A DNA stretch of 47,303 bases from assembly GCA_021846505.1 (NCBI GenBank), contig JAJZWV010000024.1:1-47303 (forward strand), in the 5' to 3' direction. Positions within the stretch are counted from its first letter, which is position 1. Every line of letters starts with the position of its first letter. The position numbers and the translations under genes are program-made. The notes under the pieces were generated by a model that was given only the letters and a program-made list of their open reading frames with translations, had not been told where the DNA came from and made no database searches. Below, piece by piece: positions 19,847 to 36,554 of this stretch. The DNA comes from Bacillota bacterium. GTDB lineage: Bacteria; Bacillota; Sulfobacillia; Sulfobacillales; JAIMBI01.

Positions 19847-21118
19847 ATGGATGAGCGCTGGCAGCGCCCGCGGGGCACGCAGGACGTGTTGCCCGCCGAG
19901 GCCGAGCGGATGGAGCGGCTGCGCCGCCTAGTGGCGCAAGTGGCCGAGCTATATGGCTACGGCGCCATCGAGACGCCGGTATTTGAGCAGACCGCGGTGT
20001 TTGTGGACGGAGTGGGGGGCGCCACGGACATCGTGCAGCACGAGCGCTACTCGTTTGTTGACGCGGGAGGCGTGGCGCTGACGCTTCGGCCCGAAGGCAC
20101 GGCGGCCATTGCCCGCGCCTACGTGGAAAACGGCCTGTCGGCTTGGCCCAAGCCGGTGAGGCTGTACTACTGGGCCCCGATGTTTCGCCGCGAGCGCCCT
20201 CAGAAGGGCCGCTACCGCCAGCATCAGCAGTATGGGTTTGAGCTGTACGGCTCCCCGGAGCCCACCGCCGACGCGGAAGTGCTGCTGGTGGCCCGACGGC
20301 TGCTGCAGGCGGTGGGGCTGTCGCCACACGTGCTGGTGAATTCAATTGGCTGTGATCAATGCCGCCCCCGCTACCGCGAGGCGCTGGTGGCGTACTTGGA
20401 CAGTCACGGGGCGGCCCTCTGTGGCGACTGCCGGCGGCGCCTGGCCGACAACCCGCTGCGCGTCCTGGACTGCAAGCAGGATCAGGCGGTGGCCCGGGGC
20501 GCCCCCGACATCGCGGCGTTTTGGTGCGATGCGTGCCGCAGCCACCAAGAGGCGGTGGTGGCGCTGGCGGCCGAGGCCGGGATTCCCGTGGAGCGCGATC
20601 CCGCGCTGGTGCGCGGGATCGACTACTACTCCCGCACCGTCTTCGAGGTGCACGACCCGTCGCTGGGCGCCCAGTCCACGGTGCTGGGCGGCGGGCGCTA
20701 CGATGGGCTGACTGTGCGAGTGGGCGGGGCTCCGGTGCCGGCGGTGGGCTTCGCCGGAGGGGCGGAGCGCCTGCTGATGGCTGCCGGCGCGGCGCTGGGG
20801 GCGCCGCGGGTGCCCAGCGCGTATGTAGCGCAGGTCGGAGTGGGCCATCAGGGATGGCAGGCGGCTGAGCGGCTGCGCGGCGCGGGGATTCCCACCGAGG
20901 TGGACCTCATGGCTCGCAGCTTGAAAGCCCAGATGAAGGAGGCCGGGCGGCGCGCCAGCGTCGTGGTGCTGGCTGGCGGCCGAGAGTGGGAGGACGGCTT
21001 GGTCACGGTGAAGAGGCTGTCGGACGGGCGGGAGGCCGCCGTGGCGCTGGCCAACCTGGCGGGCACCGTGCGGGAGTGGCTGAATGGTGTGGAGGCGGAG
21101 CACGCGGAACCGAAGTAG
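19847..21118 (+). CDS. hisS: Histidyl-tRNA synthetase
   Basis: This class II synthetase charges tRNA-His. The 423-aa protein shows motif 1 near FEQTAVFVDGVGGATDIVQ, motif 2 RYYxxMFRxE-like (LYYWAPMFRRERPQKGRYRQHQQYGFE) and the HisA-type motif LVRGIDYYSRTVFEVH. Motif 3 (AVGFAGGAERLLMA) and a C-terminal anticodon-binding domain follow. A cysteine-rich insertion (CDQCRPRY, CGDCRRRL, CDACRS) in the middle suggests a zinc-binding subdomain seen in many Firmicutes HisRS. The ribosome-binding site GAGGAGGAG precedes the ATG at 19847. No T-box leader is seen in the 31-base gap from dtd. Confidence 0.95.
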   Translation: MDERWQRPRGTQDVLPAEAERMERLRRLVAQVAELYGYGAIETPVFEQTAVFVDGVGGATDIVQHERYSFVDAGGVALTLRPEGTAAIARAYVENGLSAWPKPVRLYYWAPMFRRERPQKGRYRQHQQYGFELYGSPEPTADAEVLLVARRLLQAVGLSPHVLVNSIGCDQCRPRYREALVAYLDSHGAALCGDCRRRLADNPLRVLDCKQDQAVARGAPDIAAFWCDACRSHQEAVVALAAEAGIPVERDPALVRGIDYYSRTVFEVHDPSLGAQSTVLGGGRYDGLTVRVGGAPVPAVGFAGGAERLLMAAGAALGAPRVPSAYVAQVGVGHQGWQAAERLRGAGIPTEVDLMARSLKAQMKEAGRRASVVVLAGGREWEDGLVTVKRLSDGREAAVALANLAGTVREWLNGVEAEHAEPK

Positions 21119-21149
21119 CCCGCTCAATGCGAAAAGGAGTGAGTTGGCG

Positions 21150-22931
21150 GTGTCAGACAGCAAGGCCGGGGCGGCCTGGGGCCCGGAGCGGTCCCACTAC
21201 TGTGGCGAGGTGGGGGAAAGCCTGGTGGGCTCTGCCGTCACGGTGGCCGGATGGGTGCATCGCCGGCGAGACCACGGCGGCCTGGTGTTTATTGACCTCC
21301 GGGACCGGACAGGCCTGGTGCAGGTGGTAGTGAGCCCCGAGGCGGCCCTGGCGTTTGGCACGGCCGAGGCGGTGCGCCCGGAGTGGGTCGTTGCGGCGAC
21401 GGGCACCGTGGCGGATCGGCCCGCCGGGATGGCCAACCCGGAGCTGCCAACCGGGATGGTGGAGGTGCGAGCGGCGGCCCTCCACGTGTGGTCGCGGTCG
21501 GAGACCCCTCCCGTATCCCCGGCCAGCGGCGCCGAGGTGGATGAGCGGCTCCGCTTAAAGCACCGCTACCTGGACCTCCGGCGGCCGGAGCTGCTGAAAA
21601 ACTTTGTGCTGCGGGACCAGGTGGTGTACGCGGTGCGCCGGTGGATGCACGATCACGGCTTTTTGGATGTGGAGACGCCGGTGCTGGGCCGGAGCACGCC
21701 CGAGGGGGCCCGGGACTTCTTGGTGCCCAGCCGCGTGCAGCCCGGGCGGGTTTACGCGCTGCCGCAGAGCCCCCAGGTGTGGAAGCAGCTCCTGATGGTG
21801 GGTGGTCTGGACCGGTACTATCAGATTGTCAAGGTGTTTCGCGATGAGGCACTGCGCTCCGACCGCCAGCCAGAGTTTACCCAAATCGACATCGAGACGT
21901 CGTTTTTGAGCCAGGCGCAAATTTTGGCCTTGGTGGAGGATATGGTGCGCAGCGTATTCCGGGAAGCGCTGCAGGTGGAGCTTGCGCCTTGGCCACAGCT
22001 GACGTACGCCGAGGCGCTGGCCCAATACGGATCGGACAAGCCGGACCTGCGGGCCGGCCCGCCGCTGGTGGATTTGACGGCCGTTGCACGCGGAGCGGCG
22101 GCGATCGCCCAGTCAAACGAAGACCGGTGGGTGGGAATCGCGGCCACCCCGGCGGCGCTGTCGCGCCGGCAACTGGACGCGCTGGTGGAGCGCGCGCAGG
22201 CGATAGGCGCGCCGGGGCTGTTTTGGATCCGCCCCACCGCCGACGGCATCCGCACCAATGCCGGGCGGGCGCTGGCGGAGGGCACGGTCGCAGCCATGGC
22301 AGAGGCGGCCGGCATCCAAGCGGCCGACAGCGGCCTGCTCTTGGTGCTGGCGGGGCCGGCCCCGGAGGTGCACCGCCAGGCCGGCGTGCTGCGCCTTGAG
22401 CTGGCCGACCAGCTAGGGCACGTGGCTCCGGGGTTTCACTTTCTCTGGGTGACGGACTTTCCGCTGTTTGAGTGGTCCGCAGAGGAGCAGCGGTGGACGT
22501 CGGCGCATCATCCTTTCACGATGCCGCACCCGGACGACCGCTCCCTGGTGGCGAGCCATCCGGGGCAAGCGCGCTCCCAGGCGTACGATGTGGTGCTGAA
22601 TGGGGTCGAGCTGGCGTCCGGCAGCCTCCGGATTTATGACCCGGAGCTGCAGGCGGAGGTTTTCGGCGTCCTGGGCTTGTCCCGGGACGAGGTGGACGCG
22701 AAGTTTGGCTACCTGCTGGACGCGTTTCGCTACGGGCCGCCGCCGCACGGCGGCATTGCCTTGGGGCTCGACCGCCTGGTGATGCTTATGGCGGGCGCGG
22801 ACAGCTTGCGCGACGTGATTGCGTTTCCCAAGACGCACACCGGATCGGATCTCGTCATGGGATCGCCGGCGCTCGCGGATCCCGGGCAGTGGGCGGAGCT
22901 CCGCCTCTCGCCATGGGAGGACGACCGCTAA
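21150..22931 (+). CDS. aspS: Aspartyl-tRNA synthetase
   Basis: This bacterial-type class II synthetase is 593 aa. It has an N-terminal OB-fold anticodon-binding domain (VTVAGWVHRRRDHGGLVFIDLRDRTG) and motif 1 around FLDVETPVLGRSTPEGARDFLVPSR. Motif 2 is YYQIVKVFRDEALRSDRQPEFTQ. A GAD insertion domain covers about 290-420, and motif 3 is GIALGLDRLVML. The start is GTG 21150 after AAAAGGAGTGAG; TTG 21144 is an alternative. Discriminating versus non-discriminating specificity cannot be decided here. Its stop overlaps the convergent redoxin remnant. Confidence 0.95.
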   Translation: MSDSKAGAAWGPERSHYCGEVGESLVGSAVTVAGWVHRRRDHGGLVFIDLRDRTGLVQVVVSPEAALAFGTAEAVRPEWVVAATGTVADRPAGMANPELPTGMVEVRAAALHVWSRSETPPVSPASGAEVDERLRLKHRYLDLRRPELLKNFVLRDQVVYAVRRWMHDHGFLDVETPVLGRSTPEGARDFLVPSRVQPGRVYALPQSPQVWKQLLMVGGLDRYYQIVKVFRDEALRSDRQPEFTQIDIETSFLSQAQILALVEDMVRSVFREALQVELAPWPQLTYAEALAQYGSDKPDLRAGPPLVDLTAVARGAAAIAQSNEDRWVGIAATPAALSRRQLDALVERAQAIGAPGLFWIRPTADGIRTNAGRALAEGTVAAMAEAAGIQAADSGLLLVLAGPAPEVHRQAGVLRLELADQLGHVAPGFHFLWVTDFPLFEWSAEEQRWTSAHHPFTMPHPDDRSLVASHPGQARSQAYDVVLNGVELASGSLRIYDPELQAEVFGVLGLSRDEVDAKFGYLLDAFRYGPPPHGGIALGLDRLVMLMAGADSLRDVIAFPKTHTGSDLVMGSPALADPGQWAELRLSPWEDDR

Positions 22932-23250
22932 GCGGCGGCCACATGGGAGGCGGTGAGAAATCGGGCGTGGTGCCACAGCACGCGCCCGGTGCCGCTGGTC
23001 AGCACCATCCAAGACAGCCCGGCCACGCCATAGCCGTCTGCCAGCCGACCGGTGCCATCCACGGGCGCGGGAAGCGCCAGCGGGTGGCCAAGCTGGTGGA
23101 GAAACTGGGGCAAGGCATGCGGCTGGGCTCGGTGGGCGCCTCGTCCGCCCCAGCGGAGTGTCAAAAGGCGAGGGGGGAAGGCACCAGCCCGGAGGAACTG
23201 CTCCGGGCCGCCACAGCGCACTGGCAGCGGGGTGCTGCTTCGGGTCCCAC
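22928..23250 (-). pseudogene. Decayed TlpA/ResA-like thioredoxin-fold gene
   Basis: On the minus strand, the segment from about 23130 to the TAG at 22928 reads FLHQLGHPLALPAPVDG, then ADGYGVAGLSWMVL and GRVLWHHARFL. This is the C-terminal half of a TlpA/ResA-type redoxin, including the cis-Pro-region equivalent GVAGLSW. Upstream, the expected WCxxC active-site helix is replaced by RWGGRGAHRAQPHALPQF with no cysteines, and the N-terminal third is not readable in one frame. The fragment is probably non-functional. The upstream boundary is approximate. It ends antisense to the last codon of aspS. Confidence 0.4.
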
Positions 23251-23373
23251 AGCGGGCGCGTTTGCCCATTGCGCGGCGGACCGCCGAACGAAGCACGGGG
23301 AGCCGAAATCGCCCGAGGCGCCCGCCAATGTCGGCGGGTGCGGACCGTGGCGCCGCCGTGTGCCTCCACGGGT

Positions 23374-23517
23374 TCACGGCGTGCGGTCGGCGTCGCGGTG
23401 CTCGCGCTGGTCCCACCAGCTCCGCATCACCTCAAACCAGTCCTGAGGCTGGTCCTCTCGCCGGGCGTCCTGGAGATCCTCCTCACGCCGTTCGGGGGAT
23501 GCTTCGTGACCGTTCAT
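23374..23517 (-). CDS. Small charged protein of 47 residues, unknown function
   Basis: Reading the minus strand, ATG at 23517 is preceded by a strong ribosome-binding site (AGAAGGAGGGCACGCC). It opens 47 codons ending with TGA at 23374. The product is very rich in Glu, Asp and Arg and has a distinctive C-terminal half with WFEV, then MRSWWDQREH. There is no signal or membrane segment. A perfect 7-bp hairpin GGGGCTT/AAGCCCC (23541-23558) lies just upstream in its leader. No family is recognised. The good ribosome-binding site and clean frame argue that it is translated. Confidence 0.5.
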   Translation of the reverse strand: MNGHEASPERREEDLQDARREDQPQDWFEVMRSWWDQREHRDADRTP

Positions 23518-23663
23518 GGCGTGCCCTCCTTCTGGGGGTGGGGGCTTGGCGAAGCCCCTTCACTGAGCTCACCCTAATCCGAAGCGCGCCGACACTCACT
23601 GCGCTCGAGCCCAACGGGTGGTTGGCCACGCCGAGCGGCCGTTCCGCGCGGACAAGTGGTCCC

Positions 23664-23713
23664 ATCATGCCATGCCAAACGCTGAGACATGCCATAGAAT
23701 GATGAGGCATGAT
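23664..23713 (+). promoter_or_regulatory. Inverted repeat overlapping the sensor-kinase start
   Basis: ATCATGCC (23664-23671) and GGCATGAT (23706-23713) form a perfect 8-bp inverted repeat with two more direct ATGCC copies between. The right arm includes the ATG of the kinase ORF, and a -10-like TAGAAT sits between the arms. This is a candidate operator for autoregulation; no protein can be assigned to it from sequence alone. Confidence 0.35.
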
Positions 23714-24851
23714 CCTCGCAGGGGAATGGGGGTATTGCGTGTCGACGCATGTTCGGGATCGGTGGCCCGACACGGCTGAGCGGGGCAGCTCGGGGGCGCC
23801 TCCTGGGCTCACCGAGGACGTGGCGCAGAAAATCGCGCGCATCATCTACCGCATCGCCGACGTCGAGGCGGTGGCCATCACGGACCGTGAGCGCATTTTG
23901 GCGTATACTGGCGGGGGCTGTCCCCACATGCGGCCGGGCGCGCCCGTGCAGACCCAGGCCACCCGCCGGGTACTCGATACCGGCACGCTGGCGCTGGTGC
24001 GCGATCGTGAGGAGCTGCACTGCCCGGAGCCCACGTGCCCATCCCCGATTCAGTCGGCTGTTGTGGCACCCCTGCAGGTGGGCCACCGGGTAGTGGGCGC
24101 GGTGAAGCTTTACCGGACCGACCCCGGAGAAATGCCGCCGTACGCGACCCGCTTGGCGCAGGGCATGTCGGAGCTCCTGAGCCTGGAGCTGTCGCTGGCT
24201 GAGTCCGAGCGCCAGCGGGAGCTGTTGGCGGAGGCCCGCCTGGACGCACTGCAGGCACAGATTCGGCCGCACTTTCTCTTCAACGTCCTAAATACAGTGA
24301 TTGCCACCAGCCGTCAGGATCCGGAGGAAGCGCGGCGCCTGCTGGCAGAGCTGGCGCAGTTTCTGCGCGCCACGCTGTCGGACCACCGCGAGCAGACGAC
24401 GCTGGCGGAGGACTTGGCGGTCGTAGACCTGTACCTGCGCTTGGAAGGAGCCCGCTTCGGCAGCCGCGTTAAGGCGACAGTGGATGTTGACCCGAGCCTG
24501 CTTGCGCTCCGGATGCCGGTGCTGACCCTGGAGCCGCTGGTGGAGAACGCGGTCACCCATGGGGTGGTGCCCCGCGAGGCCATGGATGGCGTCGAGGGGC
24601 ACGTCTGGATCCGCGCACGCCGCCGCGCCGGGCGGGTGGTCATTCTCGTGGCCGACAACGGAGTGGGCATCAGCGCGGCGCGCATTCACGAGGCGTTTCA
24701 GCCGCGCGCGGGGACCGGTCTGGGTCTTGGCTTGTGGAACGTGCGTGAGCGGCTCCAAGGTCGGGCCGTGCTGCGCTTGAAGAGCCGTCCCGGGTGGGGG
24801 ACCGTCGTGCGGCTCTCCTTCCCGTCGGCTCTCGAGGGGCCGCCCGCATGA
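23709..24851 (+). CDS. Soluble GAF-domain sensor histidine kinase, LytS family
   Basis: This 380-aa two-component kinase of the LytS type lacks the usual membrane sensor. It begins with a GAF-like domain (about 35-150) containing three cysteines (C71, C105, C110) that could bind a metal, Fe-S cluster or redox signal. The His_kinase box LQAQIRPHFLFN (phospho-acceptor H188) follows. The ATPase domain has N280, DNGVG (316-320) and GTGLGLGL (335-342). It starts at ATG 23709, or possibly GTG 23739, which has a better G-rich upstream stretch. The stop overlaps the response regulator start, so they form one operon. Confidence 0.88.
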   Translation: MILAGEWGYCVSTHVRDRWPDTAERGSSGAPPGLTEDVAQKIARIIYRIADVEAVAITDRERILAYTGGGCPHMRPGAPVQTQATRRVLDTGTLALVRDREELHCPEPTCPSPIQSAVVAPLQVGHRVVGAVKLYRTDPGEMPPYATRLAQGMSELLSLELSLAESERQRELLAEARLDALQAQIRPHFLFNVLNTVIATSRQDPEEARRLLAELAQFLRATLSDHREQTTLAEDLAVVDLYLRLEGARFGSRVKATVDVDPSLLALRMPVLTLEPLVENAVTHGVVPREAMDGVEGHVWIRARRRAGRVVILVADNGVGISAARIHEAFQPRAGTGLGLGLWNVRERLQGRAVLRLKSRPGWGTVVRLSFPSALEGPPA

Positions 24852-25591
24852 CAAACGCCCGGGCGGTGCTGTCCGCCCTGATCGTGGATGACGAAGCGCC
24901 AGCGCGGGCCGAGTTGCGCTTCCAGCTCGAGCAGATTCCCGAGGTGCGGGTGGTGGGCGAGGCGGCCACCGCCAACGAGGCGCTGGAGCTCATCGAGGCC
25001 GTGGGCCACAACGTGGTCTTTCTGGACATTGCCATGCCCGGCGCCGACGGCATGGTGCTGGCGGAGCGCCTGCGAGGCGCTGCACCGGCATCACCGGCCA
25101 TCGTGTTTGTCACGGCGTACGACGGCTATGCCGTGGAGGCTTTTCGCCTCGAGGCGGTGGACTATCTGCTGAAGCCGGTGGTGCCGGAGCGGCTGGCCGC
25201 CGCGGTGAGCCGCGTGCGTGGGCGGAAGGAGCCGGGGGCCGAGGATCGGGCGACGGCCCAGCGGCGATTTGTGGCGGGCCATGCAGAGAATCGCACCGTG
25301 CCCGTGCCGTTTGAAGACGTGCTGTACTGTGAGACCGTGAAGAAGCATGTCGAGATGGCGGTAGTGGGCGGGCGGCGGTATGTGGTTCGCGAGACGCTGC
25401 ACGCTTTGGAGAAGAGCCTGCCACCGGATCTGTTCCTCCGATGCCACCGCGGCGGGATCGTCAATTTGCTGCACGTGGCCGACATTCGTCCGTTTTTCCA
25501 AGGCACCTACACCATCCGCCTGGACAATGGCGACGAGCTCCCGGTGAGCCGGAGGCTTGTCCGCCCCCTAAAGCAAGCACTCCATCTGTAG
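24848..25591 (+). CDS. LytTR-family response regulator
   Basis: The 247-aa partner of the adjacent LytS-type kinase has an N-terminal receiver domain with acidic pocket D14/D15, phospho-acceptor D60 (VVFLDIAMPG), T89 and K109 (YLLKPV). A LytTR DNA-binding domain follows at about 145-247 (VPVPFEDVLYCETVKKHVEM, FLRCHRGGIVNL, ELPVSRRL). The ATG at 24848 overlaps the kinase stop. LytTR proteins bind paired direct repeats and often control transporters, murein hydrolases or bacteriocins. No obvious target gene is immediately downstream, because the next segment is a decayed transposase. Confidence 0.92.
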   Translation: MTNARAVLSALIVDDEAPARAELRFQLEQIPEVRVVGEAATANEALELIEAVGHNVVFLDIAMPGADGMVLAERLRGAAPASPAIVFVTAYDGYAVEAFRLEAVDYLLKPVVPERLAAAVSRVRGRKEPGAEDRATAQRRFVAGHAENRTVPVPFEDVLYCETVKKHVEMAVVGGRRYVVRETLHALEKSLPPDLFLRCHRGGIVNLLHVADIRPFFQGTYTIRLDNGDELPVSRRLVRPLKQALHL

Positions 25592-25749
25592 GAGGTAGGG
25601 GCTGAGGACCGCGGCCCGGGGCTGCCCAGACTCGTCAGGTGGGCTGCGCTGCCGGCTCCGGTGTCAGGCCGCCGGCTCGCCGGGGCATTCTGCCACAGCC
25701 GCAGTGTCCGCCGGCAGAAGGCGCCCCGCAGGAGGCATCTCATGAAGCG

Positions 25750-26310
25750 ATGCAGCGCCACCTGCCGTGAACGCCTGAGCTCGTCGTGGTGGTTGCGTTT
25801 GCACCTGATCAGCGCGATGCCGGTTGCCTTACCGGGCTGTCCGCGCACCCGGACCGCCTATGGCCGGGGTGGAGCCTGCGTGGGACTGAGCCCATGCAAC
25901 GCACGCTGGCTCACCTGGAGGCCCCTTCCTGGAGCCGACCCGTGCCCGCGTGTGGGTCGAGTCGCCGACGAGTGAGGGAGGGCTGGCCACGGGTGGCGCC
26001 TCGCTGTGGCTGAGCCCGCTGGCAGTGATGCGGACTGGGCGGCGGAGACGCGTGGGCGCGCGGGTGCAGCCGCCGCCTCTGCTAAAGGTCGCTGTCGGTG
26101 ATCACGGGCGGCAGTGCCGGACGACGAAAATGCAGCGGCGAGTGGATTCCGGTTTGGGGAGCGCGTGCGCAGCGAGAGCAGCCTGGCCAGCACCGGACTG
26201 TGGCAAGCGCGCGATATGGTGGGCCTCGCCCCGGCCCCGGAGTCGACGGGGCTGCCTCGCCTCCGCGCGGGCCTGGTCCACCCCCACGGTGATGGGCAGG
26301 CTGGCACGCG
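25750..26310 (-). pseudogene. Remnant of an IS110-family transposase
   Basis: No intact ORF exists in this 0.8-kb gap, but minus-strand reading gives pieces in different frames that resemble IS110 transposases. Near 26300-26110 there is TVGVDQARAEA followed by HHIARLPQSGAGQAALAAHA, like the DEDD N-terminus. Around 26035-25900 a segment with SGLSHSEA and GDSTHTRARVGSRKGPP is like the Transposase_20 region (AGLxPS...R.SKRGxP). Near 25848-25790 RGQPGKATGIALIRC is like the RGKPxKVALVAVxRK tail. The total length is about half of a normal gene, so an internal deletion plus frameshifts are likely. No element ends or bridge-RNA region were recognised. Confidence 0.38.
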
Positions 26311-26336
26311 ACAGGGTGGTGCGCTTGCGCCAGGAG

Positions 26337-26364
26337 GGGTCCCTGCTTGTCTTAGCAGGGATCC
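26337..26364 (+). other. Hairpin upstream of the ArsR-rhodanese promoter
   Basis: CCCTGCT (26341-26347) pairs with AGCAGGG (26354-26360) around TGTCTT. Outer bases extend the stem to about 11 pairs with one G-U. No T-tract follows on either strand. It may be a transcription boundary or a binding site; its role is unknown. Confidence 0.35.
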
Positions 26365-26386
26365 GCATTCTAGATTGTCTTCGTGT

Positions 26387-26400
26387 TATACTGCGCAGTA
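26387..26400 (+). promoter_or_regulatory. -10 element with overlapping 12-bp palindrome (ArsR operator candidate)
   Basis: TATACT (26387-26392) is a good -10 for the ArsR-rhodanese gene, although no clear -35 lies 17 bases upstream. It overlaps the perfect palindrome TACTGCGCAGTA (26389-26400). A palindrome covering the -10 and start site is a typical ArsR-family repressor operator, so autoregulation by the adjacent ArsR protein is the simplest reading. Confidence 0.55.
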
Positions 26401-26421
26401 GAACAGGAGAGGAGTTGGCCC

Positions 26422-27093
26422 ATGGACGACCGTACGTTCAAATCCGGAATCTACGAGCAGGTCGCACGGCTGGGCAAGGCGACCAGTCATCCCCATCGGA
26501 TAGAGATTCTGGACCTGCTGTCCCAGGCGCCCATGACCGTGGAAGTGTTGGCCCGCCGCATGGACCGGCCCGTCGGCAGTGTATCCCAGCACCTGCAGCA
26601 TCTGCGCCAGGCCCGCCTGGTGACCGCGCGCCGTCACGGCACGTACGTGACCTACCGTTTGGCAGACGAGACCGTCTCCACTTTTCTGGTGCAGATGCGC
26701 GAGATGGCCGAGCGCCGCTATGCCGAAGTCCGGGCCGTGACCGAAGCCTTTCTGCAAGACATCGGCTCGCTCGAAGCTCTGGACATGGCGGGACTGGAGG
26801 AGCGTGTCCGCCGGGGAGATGACGTCGTCCTCATCGATGTGCGGCCCCGCGACGAGTATGCAGCAGGCCACTGGCCCGGCGCCTGGTCGGTGCCTCTGGA
26901 GGAGCTGACGACCGCTCCCCGGCCGCTGCCCGCCGGAGCGCTCATCGCAGCGTACTGTCGGGGCCCGTACTGCGTCCTGTCGATGCGGGCGGCACAGCAC
27001 CTGAAGGCAGCAGGGTACAACGTGGTGCGCCTCACCGAGGGGGCAGGTGAATGGAAAGCGCAGGGCCGCCGGCTGGAGGCAGAGGACGCGTGA
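26422..27093 (+). CDS. ArsR-type HTH regulator fused to a rhodanese domain
   Basis: This 223-aa fusion has an N-terminal winged helix (about 10-100, recognition region PVGSVSQHLQHLRQARLVTARRHGTYVTYRL) and a C-terminal rhodanese domain (about 120-220). The rhodanese active-site loop is CRGPYC, with C179 the likely persulfide-forming residue and C184 a second thiol. The fusion is known in many bacteria and is thought to sense sulfane sulfur or persulfides. The ATG at 26422 is preceded by AGGAGAGGAG. A palindrome over its own -10 suggests self-repression. Downstream are DsrE, an SQR-like flavoprotein and a permease, consistent with sulfide/polysulfide-responsive control. Confidence 0.9.
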   Translation: MDDRTFKSGIYEQVARLGKATSHPHRIEILDLLSQAPMTVEVLARRMDRPVGSVSQHLQHLRQARLVTARRHGTYVTYRLADETVSTFLVQMREMAERRYAEVRAVTEAFLQDIGSLEALDMAGLEERVRRGDDVVLIDVRPRDEYAAGHWPGAWSVPLEELTTAPRPLPAGALIAAYCRGPYCVLSMRAAQHLKAAGYNVVRLTEGAGEWKAQGRRLEAEDA

Positions 27094-27129
27094 CCCGAGC
27101 GTCGGAGAAGTGGGAAGGAGTGGAACCCA

Positions 27130-27483
27130 GTGAATCAGCGAGTGCTGTTTGTGATCAACGAGGCGCCGTACGGCTCTGAGCGCACCTACAACGCTCTGCG
27201 GCACGCCAATGCCATCGCACGGTCGGCCGATGTCGTCCAGGTGTTTTTTCTGGGCGACGGCGTCGCGGCCGCGCGCCGAGGACAGCAAACGCCCAACGGC
27301 TACTACAACGTGGAGCGCATGCTGCGTCAGGCGGACCGAGCGGGCGTGGTGATGGGGGTGTGCGGGTCCTGCATGGATGCGCGCGCGCTGCCGGCCGAGG
27401 CGCTCGTGCCGGGAGCGCACCGGAGTTCGATGGACGAACTGGCCGCGTGGACGCTGTCCGCGGACCAAGTGCTGGTCTATTAG
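27130..27483 (+). CDS. DsrE/DsrF-family sulfur-handling protein
   Basis: This 117-aa protein of the DsrE/YchN fold starts at GTG 27130 after GGGAAGGAGTGG. Proteins of this family carry or transfer sulfane sulfur on cysteines. The relevant motif is VCGSCMDARAL with C78 and C81, followed by the conserved SSMDELAAWTLSADQVLVY tail. It lies between the ArsR-rhodanese regulator and an SQR-like gene, so it probably accepts or relays persulfide in the same pathway (inference). Confidence 0.88.
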   Translation: MNQRVLFVINEAPYGSERTYNALRHANAIARSADVVQVFFLGDGVAAARRGQQTPNGYYNVERMLRQADRAGVVMGVCGSCMDARALPAEALVPGAHRSSMDELAAWTLSADQVLVY

Positions 27484-27510
27484 GTTCCCTGATCGCCGAG
27501 GAGGGATTGG

Positions 27511-28659
27511 ATGCACACCGTGCTGGTGGCCGGAGGTGGCGTAGGGGGATTGGCGTGTGCGCACCGATTGAGTCGGCGGCTTGCCGGTTGTGATCGCGTG
27601 GTGGTGTTTGACCAGATGCCCATGCACACTTTTTGGCCCTCACTTCTGTGGGTGATGACAGGGACGCGGCGGAGCAGCGCCGTGACGCGGCCGTTTAAAG
27701 ATCTCCGCGACGCGCGGGTGGAGGTGGTCCAGGCTCCGGTCACGGCGATCGATCCGAAATCCAAGATCATCCACGCAGGAGGGCAGACATGGGCAGGGGA
27801 GGCGCTGGTAGTGGCTCTGGGCGCAGCGCTGGACCCCGACCGGATTCCCGGGCTTGGTGCCGAACCCGGGAACTTCTACACCGCGGGCGGTGCGGCGGCG
27901 GTGTGGCGCGAACTGCAGGCCTTGGAGCACGGGCGGGTGGTGGTGGCCGTCCCCACGACCCCCTTCAAGTGTCCGGCGGCACCTTATGAGGGGGCGATGC
28001 TGATCGATGCCTACCTGCGCAAACGCGGTCGGCGGGCGCGCGTGTCCGTGGAACTGTGGGCGGCGGAGCCCGCACCGATGGCGGTGGCCGGGCCGGGGGT
28101 AAGCGCCTCGGTGAAGGAAGCGCTCGCCCGCCGCGACATCGCGTATTACCCCGGCGAGCGCTTGGAGCGCGTCGCGGGCGACCGAAGGCAGCTCGAGTTT
28201 GCCGGACATCGGCCGGTTAGCTATGACCTGCTCGCATACGTGCCGCCCCACCGGGTGCCCGAGGTCGTTGTGTCGGCGGGACTGGCGCCGGTGGACGGCT
28301 GGGTGTCCGTGGACCGCCACACCCTGGAAACGCCCCACCCTGGGGTGTATGCCATCGGCGACGTGGTGGGCATCCCGCTGGCGATGGGCAAACCCCTCCC
28401 CAAGGCAGGCGTGTTCGCGTTTGCAGAGGGCGAGGTGGTGGCGGATCGCATCGCCGATCAGTTGGCCGGGCGGTTGCCGGCGGCCCACTTTGACGGGCGT
28501 GGCGAATGTTTCATCGAAATGGGGCGCGGCCAAGCGGGATTCGCCCGCGGGGACTTCTTCGCTGAGCCCGCCCCCGCCGTGAGGGCGTATACGAGTGGCC
28601 GGCACTGGCACGCCGCCAAGCTGGCATTCGAACGCCGGTGGTGGTCTCAGTGGTGGTAG
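27511..28659 (+). CDS. Sulfide:quinone oxidoreductase-like FAD protein
   Basis: This 382-aa flavoprotein of the NADH-dehydrogenase-II/SQR superfamily has the N-terminal dinucleotide motif AGGGVGGL (7-14), FAD ribose-phosphate region ALVVALGA, and the SQR-type segment FKCPAAPYE with C154. The second FAD motif YAIGDVVGIPL and KAGVFA precede a C-terminal stretch GECFIEMGRGQAGF with C333. SQRs oxidise sulfide to polysulfide and reduce membrane quinone. C154 fits a catalytic cysteine, but a second redox cysteine in the usual later position is not obvious, so the exact SQR type is uncertain. The tryptophan-rich C-terminus could help with membrane attachment. Its stop overlaps the MFS gene. Confidence 0.82.
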   Translation: MHTVLVAGGGVGGLACAHRLSRRLAGCDRVVVFDQMPMHTFWPSLLWVMTGTRRSSAVTRPFKDLRDARVEVVQAPVTAIDPKSKIIHAGGQTWAGEALVVALGAALDPDRIPGLGAEPGNFYTAGGAAAVWRELQALEHGRVVVAVPTTPFKCPAAPYEGAMLIDAYLRKRGRRARVSVELWAAEPAPMAVAGPGVSASVKEALARRDIAYYPGERLERVAGDRRQLEFAGHRPVSYDLLAYVPPHRVPEVVVSAGLAPVDGWVSVDRHTLETPHPGVYAIGDVVGIPLAMGKPLPKAGVFAFAEGEVVADRIADQLAGRLPAAHFDGRGECFIEMGRGQAGFARGDFFAEPAPAVRAYTSGRHWHAAKLAFERRWWSQWW

Positions 28660-29894
28660 CCGCCGCCGGGGACCCGGGGCCCTCGGCGTCCCGCGCGCCG
28701 AAGGCGGTGTGGGCCGTCGCCCACGCGGTCAACGACGCCTATCCCACCCTGTACCTGCCGCTGCTGCCCATCCTAATGACCCGCTGGCACTTCAACATAG
28801 CCCAGGCGGGTTTGCTGGTCGGGCTGCTCGCGCTGAGCACACAAGCTACACAGCCGCTGCTGGGGGCGTGGTCTGACGGGCGCGGCGGTCCCTGGTTCAT
28901 TGTCGGCGGCCTGATGGCCGGCAGCCTCGGCAGTGCCGTGGGGCTGGCGTGGGCGCCATCGTATGCGGTTTTTGCCGCGGCCCTGATGATGGGGGGCCTC
29001 GGCAATGCCGCCTTTCACCCCCACATGGCGGCATTGGTCGCCGCTCAAGGGCGAGACCAGCACGGCCAGCGGATGAGCGCTTGGATGGTGAGCGGCATGG
29101 TGGGCCATGCGCTGTCCCCGCTGGCCGTGGTGGCGGCATGGGAGTGGGGCGGGCGGTGGGGATTGACGGCCCTGGCGCTGCCGGGCCTTCTGGCCGCCGT
29201 GCTGCTGTATGGATCGGCTCGGTCGCTGACCCGGCGGACCGCGCCGCGCGCGACAGACTGGCGGGATGCGTGGCGGCGGGGGCGCCTGCTGCTGGCCGTG
29301 ATCATGCTGCGCAACTGGGCGGCGATGAGTCTCCTGACCCTATTGCCCGTGCTGTGGCGGCAGCGCGGGGGCTCGCTGACCGACACCGGCCTCCTCATCA
29401 TGGTGGTGTACGGGGCCGGCGCGGTCGGAAACCTGCTGGGTGGAAGGCTGTCGGATCGGTGGGGTGCGCGGGTGGTGCTGGTGGTGTCGGTCATGGGCGC
29501 TGCCGGGGCCGCCCTCACTTGGGCGTTGAATCGAGGGGCTGGCCCGTGGCTGTTTGCCGAGGTGGCGCTGTGGGGCTTCGCCGTCAATGGAGCGGGGGCC
29601 GTCATTTTGGTCTATGGTCAGCAGCTGTTTCCCGGGAGCGCGGCCATGGGCGCTGGCATCACCATGGGGTTGGGGAACACCGTGGGGGCCCTGGGCGGAT
29701 GGGTCATCGGGGCGGTCGCCGCCGCCGCCGGGCTCGTGCCGGCCGTGGAGTGGGCGGCCGGGTTGCTGGGGTTGGCCCTGCTGCCGGCGATGTTCTTGCG
29801 GCCGGCCACTGGGGACGGGCGAATCGCCACGCCACCGGCGCGCGATGGGTTGTCGCCTCGCCCCAGCGGCGGTGCAGGAGGCGAACAGCTGTAA
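28638..29894 (+). CDS. MFS transporter, fosmidomycin-resistance (Fsr)-like
   Basis: This 418-aa major facilitator protein has about 12 hydrophobic segments. The start region AHAVNDAYPTLYLPLLPIL followed by QATQPLLGAWSDGRGGPW matches the Fsr-like subgroup, and GGRLSDRWGARVVL is the second half's A-like motif. The true start is among GTGs at 28638, 28647 and 28650. All overlap the upstream gene, so translation is coupled. In this setting it could export or import a sulfur compound, but the substrate is unknown. The C-terminal tail (GLSPRPSGGAGGEQL) is hydrophilic. Confidence 0.85.
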   Translation: MVVSVVVAAAGDPGPSASRAPKAVWAVAHAVNDAYPTLYLPLLPILMTRWHFNIAQAGLLVGLLALSTQATQPLLGAWSDGRGGPWFIVGGLMAGSLGSAVGLAWAPSYAVFAAALMMGGLGNAAFHPHMAALVAAQGRDQHGQRMSAWMVSGMVGHALSPLAVVAAWEWGGRWGLTALALPGLLAAVLLYGSARSLTRRTAPRATDWRDAWRRGRLLLAVIMLRNWAAMSLLTLLPVLWRQRGGSLTDTGLLIMVVYGAGAVGNLLGGRLSDRWGARVVLVVSVMGAAGAALTWALNRGAGPWLFAEVALWGFAVNGAGAVILVYGQQLFPGSAAMGAGITMGLGNTVGALGGWVIGAVAAAAGLVPAVEWAAGLLGLALLPAMFLRPATGDGRIATPPARDGLSPRPSGGAGGEQL

Positions 29895-30428
29895 AGATGG
29901 TGACGAGTGTAAAGAGTGTAAAGATGGCTCGGGCATCCCCGGGGCCGCCAGAGCCCGGGATTGGCGGCTGGCCAGCGAACGGCTCAGCGCCGCCGGCCTA
30001 GTTGACAGCGCCCAGTCGTGGCATGGGGAAAAGGGCAGGACAAGCGGGTCCAGATCCCCAGGGTCCGCACCCCTACAAAGGGCTATCCGCCCCGCGCGGC
30101 CGCTGCGGCAAATCGCGGGGCGCGGACCGCGCTGGCGTCCCATCGACTTTCCGGGCTTGGCCGCAGTGCAGCCACCTCGCAGGCTGCCGACCCTGGATGC
30201 ACGCTGCCCGTGTCCTTAAGCGACTGCCATTGCCGCGTCACCTGTTTCGGTGGGAGCTGGCCGGTGCCGTCGCGATTCTGTCTGGCATGCGCCGGATTCG
30301 CGGGAGCACTTTGGTGCTGTGAGCCAACAGCGACAGGACGCGGGGACGCGCCTGGATGGTCCGCCCCTCAGGCTTCGCTATAGCGCTACAGCGGCTCCTG
30401 CACCGCCGCGGACGCTCGGGGCAGCCGG
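29895..30428. other. Gene-free region with short direct repeats
   Basis: No convincing gene is found in this 534-base segment on either strand; the open frames lack ribosome-binding sites and known motifs. At its left edge, TGTAAAGA occurs three times (29890-29897, 29908-29915, 29917-29924), the first overlapping the MFS stop codon. The remainder may be decayed coding sequence or the convergent 3' regions of the MFS and holin-like genes. No terminator with a T-tract was seen. Confidence 0.4.
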
Positions 30429-30761
30429 TCAGCGGACAGCCGTCGGCACAAACAGGTCCACCAGGCCGATGATGAGCGCCGCTATCAGGGCAGCCACGAT
30501 GGTGACATGCATCGTGGGAATCACAAACTGAACCATCCAGATGACGGCGGCGGACACGATAAATCCCACGACGCCGCGTCCATAGGGTGACACGCCGCGC
30601 CCAAAGGCACTTTCGAGCAGGTACCCCCCGATGCTGATCGCCACCGCCGCCAAGAGAGCGTCCCAAAACGTCAGATGGGAGAAACCCGGAACCACGTATC
30701 CGAGGAGCATCAGCACCAGCGCCGCGACAATGAAGCGCACAATGGCTCCAACCCAGCCCAT
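30429..30761 (-). CDS. Phage-holin-family (YvlD-like) four-helix membrane protein
   Basis: The 110-aa minus-strand product has four hydrophobic helices. It contains VGAIVRFIVAALVLMLLGYV, PGFSHLTFWDALLAAVAI, RGVVGFIVSAAVIWMVQFVI and VTIVAALIAALIIGLVDLFV as separate segments, with the PxSPxxRG-like turn SPYGRG. This pattern fits the small 4-TM holin-superfamily proteins common in Firmicutes chromosomes, whose role is unknown and not phage-related by context. AGGAGGCGAGG on the minus strand provides a good ribosome-binding site 5' of ATG 30761. No neighbours share its direction. Confidence 0.75.
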   Translation of the reverse strand: MGWVGAIVRFIVAALVLMLLGYVVPGFSHLTFWDALLAAVAISIGGYLLESAFGRGVSPYGRGVVGFIVSAAVIWMVQFVIPTMHVTIVAALIAALIIGLVDLFVPTAVR

Positions 30762-30975
30762 AGCCTCGCCTCCTGATATCCACCATTTTCATGCGCGGTC
30801 CCGCCCACGACTCGCGCGAGGCCACTGTGCGGCCAGCGTGGGCATGGCCGTAGTGTGGCGCGGCGCCAGCGTTTCATACCCCGGGTAGGTGCCTCGGCCG
30901 ACGGGCACGCTACGTCGGGGATGCTGCGGGCATCGCCAGGCGCAAACGGTGGCATCATCGTTCCGCTGACCACGC

Positions 30976-30995
30976 GTTGACAACAAGTTGACAAC
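30976..30995 (+). repeat. Two direct copies of GTTGACAAC
   Basis: GTTGACAAC, itself an odd palindrome, occurs at 30976-30984 and 30987-30995, an 11-base period, ending just before the ribosome-binding site of the DUF3243-like gene. Each contains TTGACA, but no -10 hexamer lies at the right distance because the ribosome-binding site and start codon occupy that position. An operator or a translational control site is more likely than paired -35 elements. Confidence 0.5.
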
Positions 30996-31014
30996 TAGGA
31001 GGTGCACTGGCAGC

Positions 31015-31302
31015 ATGGCCAGTCAAGCAAACGGAGTGCCGCGGTCGTTTCAGGATCTGAAGGCGCGCGCCGCCGCGAAGATTCGGCGCGGCGACCAGGA
31101 CGTCCACAACGACATCATCGAGATGGGCGATGCGATGCTGCAGGCGGGCGTTGAGCCCGAGACGCATCAGGACCATGTGGCGAAAGCCGTGTGGCAGTCG
31201 AGTCAGCCGCACGAGAAGCGCATGCTGGCGGACTTGGTGGCCCGGATGGCCAAGGCAGAGGCCGACACTACCAGCGCCGCCGACCAGAACCCACTCGGAT
31301 GA
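31015..31302 (+). CDS. DUF3243-like small cytoplasmic protein
   Basis: This 95-aa protein starts at ATG 31015 with AGGAGGTG about 10 bases upstream. The stretch EMGDAMLQAGVEPETHQDHV followed by KAVWQSSQPHEKRMLADLVARM resembles DUF3243 (B. subtilis YmfJ-like) proteins, which are small, helical and of unknown function. The N-terminal part (SFQDLKARAAAKIRRG) is not conserved in that family as far as can be judged. It is a single-gene unit preceded by an unusual tandem repeat and followed by the 6S RNA promoter region. Confidence 0.6.
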   Translation: MASQANGVPRSFQDLKARAAAKIRRGDQDVHNDIIEMGDAMLQAGVEPETHQDHVAKAVWQSSQPHEKRMLADLVARMAKAEADTTSAADQNPLG

Positions 31303-31396
31303 CGATCGGATGACGAGGACTCGGGAACTCGGAGTCTCTCTCTGGATCGGTTTGGATTGCGGAGGACGGTTTGCCGGCAACGGCAGCCGTCTCTCC

Positions 31397-31425
31397 TTGT
31401 GAAGCGGACCGGGGGTGCCTATAAT
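31397..31425 (+). promoter_or_regulatory. Strong SigA promoter of the 6S-like RNA
   Basis: TTGTGA (31397-31402), a 17-base spacer and a perfect TATAAT (31420-31425) form one of the best promoters in the window. The predicted start is near 31432, at the base of the closing stem of the RNA. No open reading frame follows. Confidence 0.78.
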
Positions 31426-31431
31426 GGCGGC

Positions 31432-31644
31432 AGGACCCTGCAGTGTGCGTGAGCGTTGTGGTATGTTTTGAGCCAACACCATGACATAGGGAACCGGATC
31501 CTTGGGCAGGTAGCCGGCACGCCCCCCCGTCAGGGCTAGGGGACGTCGAAAATTTGCGGGAGGTTCCCACCTGCTTGCGAGCAGGTTCAAAACGCCAATG
31601 AGTCACACGGCATCGCGGGGCATCGGCGGGGGCAACCCCCGCCG
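31432..31644 (+). ncRNA. ssrS: 6S RNA
   Basis: 6S RNA binds sigma-A RNA polymerase as an open-promoter mimic. Helices readable here give its standard rod shape. The closing stem has CCCTGC 31436-31441 with 31615-31620, GTGTG 31443-31447 with CACAC 31604-31608, and GCGTT 31453-31457 with 31591-31595. A central bubble carries a small hairpin on its 3' strand (ACCTGCT/AGCAGGT, 31569-31575 with 31580-31586). The apical arm has GGGAACC 31489-31495 with 31562-31568 and TAGCC/GGCTA at 31511-31515 with 31534-31538. TTTTGAGCC and GGTTCAAAA can also pair across the bubble. A perfect promoter and terminator bracket it, with no ORF inside. The position between aspS and rarA matches the Gram-positive 6S locus. 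The mature 3' end is probably near 31622. Confidence 0.8.
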
Positions 31645-31655
31645 TTCCTTATTTG
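31624..31655 (+). terminator. Intrinsic terminator of the 6S-like RNA
   Basis: CGGCGGGGG (31624-31632), loop CAA and CCCCCGCCG (31636-31644) form a perfect 9-bp stem. It is followed by TTCCTTATTTG, a T-rich tract. The T-rich tract runs into the left end of the TnpB element. Confidence 0.85.
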
Positions 31656-31661
31656 ATCAGG

Positions 31662-31702
31662 TGGGGCGTAAAACCCCCGGCTTGAGCGCTGGGGATATGA
31701 CC
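31662..31702 (+). repeat. Left terminal hairpin resembling the element's right end
   Basis: The run AAACCCCCGGC, a short loop, then GCTGGGGATATGAC closely resembles the right-end sequence at 33092-33125 (CGAATCCCCCGGC, loop, TGTGGGGAAGATGTCA). Perfect hairpins follow: CCCGAAGGGCT (31723-31733) with 31753-31763, and TTTCGCC (31782-31788) with GGCGAAA (31797-31803). The segment GGAAACACC and GTGAGGGCGAGCAGG recalls omega-RNA cores, although it lies 5' of tnpB. It is either the normal left end or a remnant of a second, older copy. Confidence 0.5.
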
Positions 31703-31959
31703 CGCGGTGGCCCTTGGAAACACCCGAAGGGCTGAAAGCCCCGCAGGGGGGAAGCCCTTCGGGCCCGTGAGGGCGAGCAGGTTTCGCCGCCGCGCTGGCG
31801 AAATCGCCGCGCAGGCTGGGCCGCCGAGCATTCCCGGCCGTACCATGGGCGGGACATCGACCCGCTGCACGCTAAAGGAGCCCGAACGCCAGGGGCATTC
31901 GGCGCGGCGGCCGGTTGCGCTTGGGCGCCTCGCCCACCGGGGACCACCAGCTCACAGCC

Positions 31960-32976
31960 TTTGGGGCCAGGCGCGCGGCGTCTGGAATCAGGCGCGGGCC
32001 GCAACCCGCCGCCGGCTCGACCAAGGCGTGCCCTTGATGGGGTGCGAGGACTTAGCCAGCCTCGCAGCCGGGACGGACACCGCGGAGCGGGGCGTCTTGG
32101 CCGATGCCCCGCCCCAACCCCTCCCGCAGCGGCGGAGCGATTTGGCCCGTGCATTTCACGAAGCGGTTGACCCCGCCCAGCCCAGAAAGCACCTAGCCCC
32201 TTCAAAGAGCGGGGGTGGGATGACACGCTCCGGGTCCCCCAAGGGTCGCGATGGCGGGGAGCCGGGTGCGCCTGCCCAAACTTGGCTGGGTGACGTTCTT
32301 CCAGAGGCGGCCGATGCCGGGCGTGCTCAAGAACCCCACCGTCAGCCGCCCCGGCCGCCACGGGTTTGTCCCCGTCCAGACAGAGCAGGCGGTGGCCGCC
32401 CCCGTGCCAAGGCCCCCACCGATTGGGGGGCGGCGACCTGGGGGGTGCATTTTCTGGCGCTCTCCGACGGGACGGTGGGCGACGCCCCGCGGGCGGCCCC
32501 TGCGCGGCGGCGCCCGCCGAGGGCGCGGGTGCAGCGGACGCTCGCGCGCCAAGTGAAGTTCTCGAAGAACTGGACAAAGACCAAACGCCGTCTCAACGCC
32601 TTGCATGCCCGGATAGCGGACCGCCGCCGCGAGTTTGTGCAGCGCCTCAGCCCCACCGTCAGCCCACACCACGCGACGGTGGCGCTGACGCGGAGCAGCC
32701 GGGGAGCCGTGTGCGTCAGCAGGCCGCCTGAATCGCGCCATCGTGGAAAAGGCTGGGGGCGGTTGGCCACGCTGCTTGACGCCAAGGGGGGCGCCACGCA
32801 GCGGGCAGGTGGTGATGGTCCCGGCCGCCTAGTCCTCGCAAGAGTGCCCGGCCTGCGGACACACGGCGAAAGCTAATCGACCGACGCGGGAGCGATTGTG
32901 CTGCGAGCATGCGGCTGCGCGCAGATGGCGGACGTGAAGGCGGCGGAGACGCTGGAGGACCGGGGGCGCCAGACGT
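31960..32976 (+). pseudogene. tnpB: tnpB pseudogene (RNA-guided nuclease of IS605-type elements)
   Basis: TnpB homology is scattered over three frames. GVWNQARAATRRRLDQGVPL and the DLARAFHEAV region run from about 31977 to 32216. VRLPKLGWVTFFQRRP and PKNVTVSR-like LKNPTVSRPG lie at about 32263-32340. WGVHFLALSDG is at 32439-32471, RTLARQVKFSKN and KRRLNALHARIADRRREF at about 32535-32636, and the zinc-ribbon SQECPACGHTAKANRPTRER at about 32836-32895. After a one-base frameshift come CGCAQMADVKAAETLEDRGR. The third RuvC Asp (in ADVKAAE, codon 32931-32933) survives. The first (GVDLG) is deleted and the catalytic Glu is not found. With several frameshifts it cannot encode an active nuclease. The N-terminal start is not recognisable. 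Confidence 0.8.
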
Positions 32977-33125
32977 TGGGCGTCCCCTCCGGCCTGACCG
33001 GCGTCCGCTCCCCGCCGGGGGCACCGGGTGGCTGCCTGTGGCGGGGGGCGTTGGCCTCCCGATGAAGCAGGAACGGCGCCACGGCTCGGGCGAATCCCCC
33101 GGCGTTAGCTGTGGGGAAGATGTCA
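32960..33125 (+). ncRNA. Omega-RNA (reRNA) remnant at the right end of the TnpB element
   Basis: TnpB uses an RNA made from the 3' end of its gene plus the right end of the element. Here the expected landmarks appear in order. GGCTGCCTGTGG and GATGAAGCAGGAAC fall at about 33031-33074. The terminal hairpin GAATCCCCCGGC with loop and GCTGTGGGG follows at 33092-33115, ending in GATGTCA. In an active element the guide would start right after 33125, inside the neighbouring MerR/XRE/cupin gene. With tnpB broken this RNA is probably a relic, but its sequence is better preserved than the protein's. Confidence 0.6.
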
Positions 33126-33917
33126 TACGCGGGGAGTAGGGACCGGGCCCTCCGCATCCCGATGCACCCAGAGGGCTTGCAGGATGCCGTCTCCGGCATG
33201 CCATCGGTGCAGCACCTCGGACCGAAACGCCATCGAGTCCCCGGCCTCCAGCACGTAGGCGCGGTCACCTGTCAACTCCAGGTGCAGGCGGCCGCTCGCC
33301 ACCCAGATAAATTCCTCACCGGGATGGCCGTGGAAGGCGTCCACACCCTTGCCGGGCTCTGCGGTCACCAGGAGGGGGCGCAGGTGGACCGGGCCCTGCG
33401 CCAGGCCCTCCAGCACCAAGCCCTCGCCGCTCGTGAGCAGCACCGGCCGGGCATGGGCTCTCACCAAGGCCGGGCCCGCCCCGGACTCCCCGCGCACCAG
33501 GTCGATGAGAGCCAAGCCGTATAGGGTAGCCAGTGCCTGCAGTGTGACCAGCGTGCCGTTCGATCGGCCCGCCTCCAGCGCCGCCAGCCGCGTCTCGCTG
33601 AGGCCCACCCGCCGGGCCGCGTCGCCAAGATCCCAGCCGCGGCTCTGCCGGAGGCGGGCCAGTGTCTGCCCCAGCTCGGAGCGCCGGGCGGCCGGAGGCT
33701 CATCCAATTCGCCCAGCAGGGCGGCTGCTGCGGCGATGCGGGTGCCCCGGCCCAGGACCTGCTTGATGAGGTGGAGCCGCACCAGCTCCGGCGCCAGGAA
33801 GTAGCGCGCCCCCGCACTGTCGCGCGGGCAGCGCACCAATCCGCGGCGCTCCCACTTGCGAATGGTTTGGGGGGAGACCCCTACCTCAGCCGCAGCTTCC
33901 TGAATGCGCATGCGCAC
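33123..33917 (-). CDS. Transcriptional regulator with MerR-like HTH, XRE HTH and cupin domain
   Basis: This 264-aa minus-strand regulator has three parts. A MerR-type helix-turn-helix lies at about 4-70 (RIQEAAAEVGVSPQTIRKWERRGLV). An XRE/HTH_3 domain lies at about 82-140 (LGQTLARLRQSRGW, ARRVGLSETRLAALEAG). A cupin_2 domain covers about 175-252 with possible metal/ligand residues H196, H198, E202, H237 and H240. XRE-cupin regulators are common, but an added MerR-like N-terminus is unusual. The GTG at 33917 has GGGGAGG seven bases upstream; ATG 33911 is an alternative. The stop codon (33125-33123) lies within the terminal bases of the TnpB element, so the last codons may have been altered by the insertion. 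It is divergent from the threonine aldolase gene. Confidence 0.85.
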   Translation of the reverse strand: MRMRIQEAAAEVGVSPQTIRKWERRGLVRCPRDSAGARYFLAPELVRLHLIKQVLGRGTRIAAAAALLGELDEPPAARRSELGQTLARLRQSRGWDLGDAARRVGLSETRLAALEAGRSNGTLVTLQALATLYGLALIDLVRGESGAGPALVRAHARPVLLTSGEGLVLEGLAQGPVHLRPLLVTAEPGKGVDAFHGHPGEEFIWVASGRLHLELTGDRAYVLEAGDSMAFRSEVLHRWHAGDGILQALWVHRDAEGPVPTPRV

Positions 33918-35213: not shown

Positions 35214-36554
35214 ATGGATCTATTTAGTGGAGCGGGCGCCCAGGACCGCGCCGCAGCGGCGCCGCTGCCCGAGCGCATGCGGCCCCGACGCCTGGAGGAC
35301 GTAGTGGGGCAAGAGCATCTGACCGGCCCGCAGGGGGTGCTCCGCCGCATGGCGGCGGCCGGCCGGGTGCGGTCGGTGGTGCTGTTTGGGCCGCCCGGCT
35401 CCGGCAAAACCAGCCTCGCGCGTGCGCTGGCCGAAGCGGCGGACTTAGCGCATGTGCCCTTATCAGCGGTGGAGAGTGGCGTGGCGGACGTGCGCCGGCT
35501 GGTGGAAGTCGCCCGCCAGCGCTGGGACCACGAAGGCCGCGGCACGCTGGTATTCCTGGACGAAATCCACCGGTTCAACCGAGCGCAGCAAGACGTGCTC
35601 CTGCCTCATGTGGAGGATGGCACAGTAGTCCTGGTGGGAGCAACCGCCGAAAACCCCTGGGTCAGTTTGAACGCGGCCCTGCTGTCGCGGTGCTTGGTCT
35701 TAGAGCTCAGGCCGCTCACCCGCGATCACATCCTGGCCGTGCTGCGCCAGGCGATGGCGCGCCGGTCGGAGTGGCTGCCGGCGGCGGAGGCTTCTCCCGA
35801 GGCGCTGGGGCAAATTGCGGATCGCGCGGGCGGTGACGGTCGGCTGGCGCTGACGCTGTTGGAGTGGGCATGCCTGGCACTTCCCGGCGGGGTGCGGGCC
35901 GGGCCCGAATTGAATGCGCTGTGGGGAGAAGTGCCGCACTACCACGACCGGGCTGGAGATCGCCACTATGACCGAGCGTCGGCGCTTATCAAAAGCATGC
36001 GCGGGTCGGACCCCGACGCCGCGCTGTTTTGGTTTGGCCAGCTGCTGGCCGGCGGCGAGGACCCGCGCTTTGTGTCGCGCCGCGTGATGATTGCGGCGGC
36101 GGAGGATGTGGGGCTGGCCGACCCGCGTGCGCTCCAGATCGCGGTGGCGGCGCACCAGGCGCTGGAGGCAGTGGGGTTGCCGGAAGCCCGCATTCCGCTC
36201 GCGGAGGCGGTGCTGTATGTGGCGCTGGCTCCGAAATCCAACAGTGTGGTGGCCGCACTGGCCCGCCTGGACACGGTGCTGGCTCAGCACGGCGGCGCCG
36301 CCGTGCCCGATTGGCTCCGGGATGTAAGCTACCGCCCGGACCGGCGCCGCGATCCGGACCGCATCGGGTATGCCTATCCCCATGACGCCCCCGGGCACTT
36401 CGTCCCGACGCGGCACCTTCCGCCTGAGGTTGACGGCCAGACGATTTACGCACCCACCGAGCAGGGCGAAGAGGCACTGGGGGCTGCGCGCTTGGCCGAA
36501 TGGCGCCGGGCGCGCCGGGAAGCCGGCGGAGGGCCCCCGCCGCCGCCCCCCTGA
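35214..36554 (+). CDS. rarA: Replication-associated recombination protein RarA (MgsA)
   Basis: RarA is an AAA+ ATPase related to clamp loaders and RuvB that acts at stalled replication forks. The 446-aa product has Walker A GPPGSGKT (59-66), Walker B FLDEIHRFN (DEIH at 116-119), sensor 1 GATAENPWVSLNAALLSRC and the C-terminal tetramerisation region (DASALIKSMRGSDPDAALFWFGQLL-like). In many Gram-positive bacteria this gene lies next to aspS or 6S RNA; here the 6S-like RNA is 3.6 kb upstream. The proline-rich tail is unconserved. The sdh operon follows after 61 bases. Confidence 0.95.
   Translation: MDLFSGAGAQDRAAAAPLPERMRPRRLEDVVGQEHLTGPQGVLRRMAAAGRVRSVVLFGPPGSGKTSLARALAEAADLAHVPLSAVESGVADVRRLVEVARQRWDHEGRGTLVFLDEIHRFNRAQQDVLLPHVEDGTVVLVGATAENPWVSLNAALLSRCLVLELRPLTRDHILAVLRQAMARRSEWLPAAEASPEALGQIADRAGGDGRLALTLLEWACLALPGGVRAGPELNALWGEVPHYHDRAGDRHYDRASALIKSMRGSDPDAALFWFGQLLAGGEDPRFVSRRVMIAAAEDVGLADPRALQIAVAAHQALEAVGLPEARIPLAEAVLYVALAPKSNSVVAALARLDTVLAQHGGAAVPDWLRDVSYRPDRRRDPDRIGYAYPHDAPGHFVPTRHLPPEVDGQTIYAPTEQGEEALGAARLAEWRRARREAGGGPPPPPP

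Follow-up and report, generated by a model that had tools for sequence, protein, structure and literature searches.

A 6S RNA gene between aspS and rarA in a high-GC Bacillota bacterium, and a possible competing hairpin on its 5′ strand

Introduction

6S RNA, a well-known small RNA, imitates an open promoter and thereby restrains RNA polymerase. The E. coli 6S RNA and B. subtilis 6S-1 belong to Rfam family RF00013, whose members are rods of 160 to 200 nt, and both have a closing stem, a bubble with a hairpin on its 3′ strand, an apical arm, a pRNA template at the bubble edge, and their own promoter and terminator. A position near rarA has been published for the 6S genes of lactic acid bacteria and B. 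subtilis, and the pRNA motif of the lactic acid bacteria comprises conserved GG and AA dinucleotides, with an A directly upstream of the start (PMC8414754). For the 5′ bubble strand of the B. subtilis RNA, a weak hairpin has been predicted, which structure probing did not confirm (PMC8876501); when the Rfam 6S seed was analyzed for covariation, the alternative helix known from the E. coli RNA showed none (PMC7657543).

Here we analyze a contig stretch of 47,303 nt (the window) from a Bacillota bacterium, in which an earlier sequence-only reading had proposed a 6S RNA gene. The gene shares all of the listed E. coli and B. subtilis features, including RNA length, and is an ordinary, unsurprising addition to the known family. 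It adds a well-supported 6S gene, a predicted pRNA, and a conserved neighborhood for a Bacillota lineage known here from metagenome-assembled relatives only.

Results and Discussion

A single, complete 6S RNA gene

To evaluate the proposed 6S identity, we used the covariance-model search that the sequence-only reading had suggested. Positions 31432 to 31625 (+ strand) matched RF00013, the 6S model of Rfam, with 77.7 bits, well above the gathering (curated) cut-off of 46.4 bits, and the alignment spanned model positions 1 to 187, the complete model length. The same search of the whole genome (3.58 Mb in 119 contigs, 96% complete) returned this match and no other, the reverse of a locus that lacks a model match while a clear 6S lies elsewhere. 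Because the locus passed this covariance-model test, the 6S interpretation is supported. The gene consists of the following parts.

31397-31425, + strand: promoter of the sigma-70/sigma-A type, TTGTGA (31397-31402), a 17-base spacer, and TATAAT (31420-31425), read directly
31432-31625, + strand: 6S RNA (ssrS/bsrA-type), mature region as modelled by RF00013, 194 nt
31624-31644, + strand: intrinsic terminator hairpin of 9 bp followed by a T-rich tract, read directly

Both signals had been described in the earlier reading, and both are present as described. The RNA starts near 31432, and a counterpart of the promoter, TTGnnn-(17 or 18)-TATAAT, lies 5 to 17 nt upstream of the 6S RNA in 40/40 same-order loci examined; because the element recurs in every one of these loci, it is not a chance match. 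The terminator, CGGCGGGGG-CAA-CCCCCGCCG, is a perfect 9-bp hairpin followed by TTCCTTATTTG. Its hairpin is kept in two relatives of the same genus (L031 and L033), where the loops differ and the T tracts are longer or better than here. The claim that about 210 bases lack an open reading frame was borne out for the + strand and did not hold for the reverse strand, which has two long frames (30955-31590 and 31268-31606); long reverse-strand frames are common in this window of 69% GC.

Model score, conserved rod, own promoter and terminator, pRNA template, and the lack of a better candidate in the genome all place the RNA in RF00013, and no feature places it outside the family. We conclude with near certainty that this high-GC Bacillota bacterium has one 6S RNA gene, which lies intact at positions 31432 to 31625 and has a promoter, a terminator, and an open-promoter-like bubble. 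Other Rfam matches near the terminator and in the flanks (g2, Ms_AS-8, Streptomyces-metK, and others) scored below their cut-offs, at 10.8 to 20.1 bits, and were taken as chance. A plasmid collection searched with the 6S locus gave no match.

Covariation supports the canonical fold

The Rfam alignment reproduced the closing stem, central bubble, 3′-strand hairpin, and apical arm that had been drawn from the sequence alone. Covariation was scored in 39 same-order sequences.

31433-31450, + strand: closing stem (helix 1), 5′ strand, pairing with 31607-31623; Rfam alignment and covariation
31465-31474, + strand: helix P2 (helix 2), 5′ strand GUUUUGAGCC, also the body of the pRNA template; Rfam alignment and covariation
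31475-31488, + strand: central bubble, 5′ strand (5′-CB) AACACCAUGACAUA; Rfam alignment
31489-31568, + strand: apical arm; Rfam alignment and the strongest covariation
31569-31586, + strand: hairpin on the 3′ strand of the bubble (helix 7); Rfam-aligned sequence and covariation
31584-31593, + strand: helix P2, 3′ strand GGUUCAAAAC; Rfam alignment and covariation
31607-31623, + strand: closing stem, 3′ strand; Rfam alignment and covariation

Across the canonical fold, 113 cells had both partners of a pair changed, compared with 51.9 (sd 6.5) in shuffled alignments, none of which reached the observed count (0/500), and all slid versions of the structure scored below the true register. The clearest changes were in helix 4 of the apical arm, where five of six pairs had both-side changes; the top pair of helix 7 had them in 16/39 sequences, and P2 was almost invariant. 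These data support the canonical arrangement of closing stem, bubble, and apical arm. Thermodynamic folding, the other computational check proposed, would not by itself have revealed a 6S structure: the folding energy of the region was not unusual for its composition (z = −0.88), and 33 of 200 shuffled sequences folded at least as well.

The inner 4 bp of the 3′-bubble hairpin are compatible with P2, and the hairpin can reach 7 bp (ACCUGCU/AGCAGGU) once P2 opens. As in B. subtilis 6S-1, a short 3′-bubble hairpin is already possible in the free RNA (PMC8876501).

A conserved pRNA template and a predicted E. coli-like release

The pRNA start was placed by homology at C31477, on the edge of the bubble.

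31464-31477, + strand: predicted pRNA template, with the start opposite C31477 and synthesis towards 31464; placed by its conservation and by published pRNA rules

The template GTTTTG[AG]GCCAACA is intact in 40/40 same-order sequences. The predicted pRNA, 5′-GUUGGCUCAAAACA-3′, would carry GG at positions 4/5 and AA at 9/10, with an A directly before its start; this matches the pattern published for lactic acid bacteria, except that GG is at 5/6 there (PMC8414754).

The template also bears on whether the RNA could instead be a 6S-like RNA of the Ms1 type, which binds core polymerase and has no template role. The rod shape of Ms1 is similar (PMC9130861), but the 6S model was matched here over its whole length, the template is intact in all of the same-order sequences, and the host is a Bacillota bacterium by its relatives (the closest named ones by RarA, at 77 to 79% identity, are metagenome-assembled Bacillota), whereas Ms1 was described from Actinobacteria. 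We therefore consider an Ms1-type RNA very improbable and treat the locus as 6S.

In the mechanism that we propose for this 6S RNA, the housekeeping-type promoter would give a transcript of ~190 nt ending at its own terminator and folding into a rod whose bubble resembles an open promoter. By homology, the RNA would take the place of DNA on the RNA polymerase holoenzyme with the housekeeping sigma factor and reduce transcription, chiefly in stationary phase. Once nucleotides are available again, polymerase would copy the RNA from 31477 to 31464, giving a pRNA of ~14 nt, and this synthesis would open helix P2. The 3′ strand of P2, once freed, would allow the 3′-bubble hairpin to grow from 4 to 7 bp (31569-31586), as in release of the E. 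coli type. The outer pairs of the 7-bp form are invariant, so the resemblance to E. coli release is read from the sequence only.

The predicted release appears to differ from that of B. subtilis 6S-1 (PMC8876501) in that the 3′ hairpin can grow at the expense of P2 and no convincing collapse helix was seen. Complementarity between the distal 5′-CB and the P2 3′ strand gave a permutation z of −2.3, little beyond the −1.9 of a negative (reversed-arm) control and far from the −6.7 of P2, so that a central bubble collapse helix of the B. subtilis type appears to have little support here.

A competing hairpin on the 5′ strand

The Rfam consensus draws no hairpin on the 5′ strand of the bubble, whereas the sequences of this bacterium's class have co-varying arms for one.

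31462-31488, + strand: competing 5′-strand hairpin (UAUGUU/GACAUA) that surrounds the predicted start of the pRNA and is weak in this species; in an alternative register, 31455-31462 would pair with 31478-31485

Within the order, UAUGUUUU, on the 5′ side of the template core, is able to pair with the bubble sequence AAAACAUA in a hairpin that surrounds the predicted pRNA start and is incompatible with half of P2. Pairing is kept in 98.1% of cells in these sequences, with both-side changes at one pair, which is thin support. Across the class, the two arms change together (examples are UAGGUUUU/AAGACCUA, GCAGUUUU/AAAACUGC, UGUGUUUU/AAAACACA, GAGUUGUUG/CAACAACUC, and UUUUAAAUGAC/GUCAUUUAAAA).

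We assessed this pattern with one sequence from each of 45 families, permuting the downstream arm among families in a test that does not model phylogeny. Matched hairpins averaged −5.58 kcal/mol and permuted ones −4.16 kcal/mol (sd 0.20), with 0/20,000 permutations as low as the matched mean (z −7.0). By the same kind of test, the arms co-vary across families as strongly as those of P2 (z about −7 versus −6.7), and z was −6.3 with 40 non-redundant sequences. The signal was weaker when only contiguous stems of at least 6 bp were counted (20/45 matched, compared with a permuted mean of 14.0, sd 2.3); about half of the 45 families are without a 6-bp competing stem. In other classes of the phylum, perfect versions of 8 to 10 bp were found by eye in some sequences (G145, G210, and G303). 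In this species, predicted pairing of the hairpin was 0.02 to 0.40 in growing chains and 0.04 at full length, where P2 reached 0.70; in sequences of two families (f30 and f39), the hairpin was predicted to be dominant even at full length.

From these results, we tentatively propose that in the class of this bacterium and in some other Bacillota, 6S RNA has a second, evolutionarily maintained state in which the P2 5′ strand is paired to the distal 5′-bubble strand and the pRNA start lies in the loop; we hold this to be a serious possibility, a little short of an even chance. Formation of the hairpin would exclude P2 and probably, on steric grounds, pRNA synthesis as well. Temporary hairpins occur in other RNAs with long-range folds, and by analogy the likeliest role here would be to hold the 5′ strand temporarily until its distant partner is made. 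Alternatively, once the pRNA has been released, the hairpin may represent a state in which the RNA is off or being recycled. It may also have been described earlier in the comparative 6S literature. If the second state is real, this co-varying helix, on the strand opposite to that of the known E. coli alternative helix, would offer a direct handle on 6S folding or resetting between the polymerase-bound and free states.

The 6S locus is conserved, with an IS605-type element inserted after the gene

The aspS and rarA genes named in the sequence-only reading are both present, and rarA is separated from the 6S gene by an inserted element, a regulator, and an aldolase, as that reading stated.

21084-22931: aspS (Pfam), 8.5 kb from the 6S gene
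30988-31302: DUF3243 gene, directly upstream of 6S
31656-33125, + strand: IS605-type element with a decayed OrfB/TnpB (OrfB_IS605, PF01385), outside the RNA gene
35214-36554: rarA (Pfam)

The regulator is a MerR/cupin protein and the aldolase a threonine-aldolase-type lyase. Relatives show all or part of the order hisS-aspS-Phage_holin_4_2-DUF3243-6S-Thr aldolase-rarA, and rarA lies downstream of 6S wherever the examined stretch reaches that far. The link to rarA that the reading had named is published for lactic acid bacteria (PMC8414754), where uspA is found instead of the DUF3243 and Thr aldolase flanks seen here, and the link to aspS is borne out by the aspS-6S-rarA order of relatives. DUF3243 is a conserved neighbor of 6S in most of the order relatives examined, as a co-conserved partner.

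Here, the conserved order is stretched by ~7.5 kb after aspS and by the 1.47-kb IS605-type element past the terminator. The segment between aspS and the holin-like gene at 30429 (22932-30428) is well under 1 kb in several of the same-order relatives examined; its genes here encode, among others, an ArsR-like regulator that has a rhodanese-like domain and a sulfide-quinone-reductase-like protein, both recognized by eye, and an MFS transporter (Pfam).

The IS605-type element contains a decayed OrfB/TnpB frame (31707-32876), and its ends are shared with other, partial copies in the same genome that begin or end at 31656 or 33125. It is absent from the same-genus relatives L031 and L033. A 6S copy that is decaying or silenced through damage by this insertion could be envisaged, given that the element begins ~12 bases after the terminator hairpin and that the T tract is poorer here than in relatives. 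Nevertheless, the promoter, the template, all helices, and the terminator hairpin, which lie upstream of the insertion, are intact, and the genome holds no second 6S as a replacement, which makes decay highly unlikely and leaves an intact 6S gene as the preferred reading. That the RNA is a cis-acting leader or attenuator of the gene cluster ending in rarA, upstream of which it lies, has a negligible chance of being correct, as the RNA has a promoter and a terminator of its own, the next gene is on the opposite strand (33123-33917, −), and the fold is kept in relatives with different downstream genes.

Distribution of 6S genes among relatives

RF00013 matches over the cut-off were found in 58/61 relatives, in 112/120 genomes of the class sample, and in 194/199 of the phylum sample. 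Three genomes of one family (f18; G056, G081, and G082), each >90% complete, gave a weak partial match (28.5 bits) or none. One genome of the class (G053) carries two diverged 6S genes (L005 and L123, with 103.2 and 71 bits), and other genomes of the phylum carry two or three.
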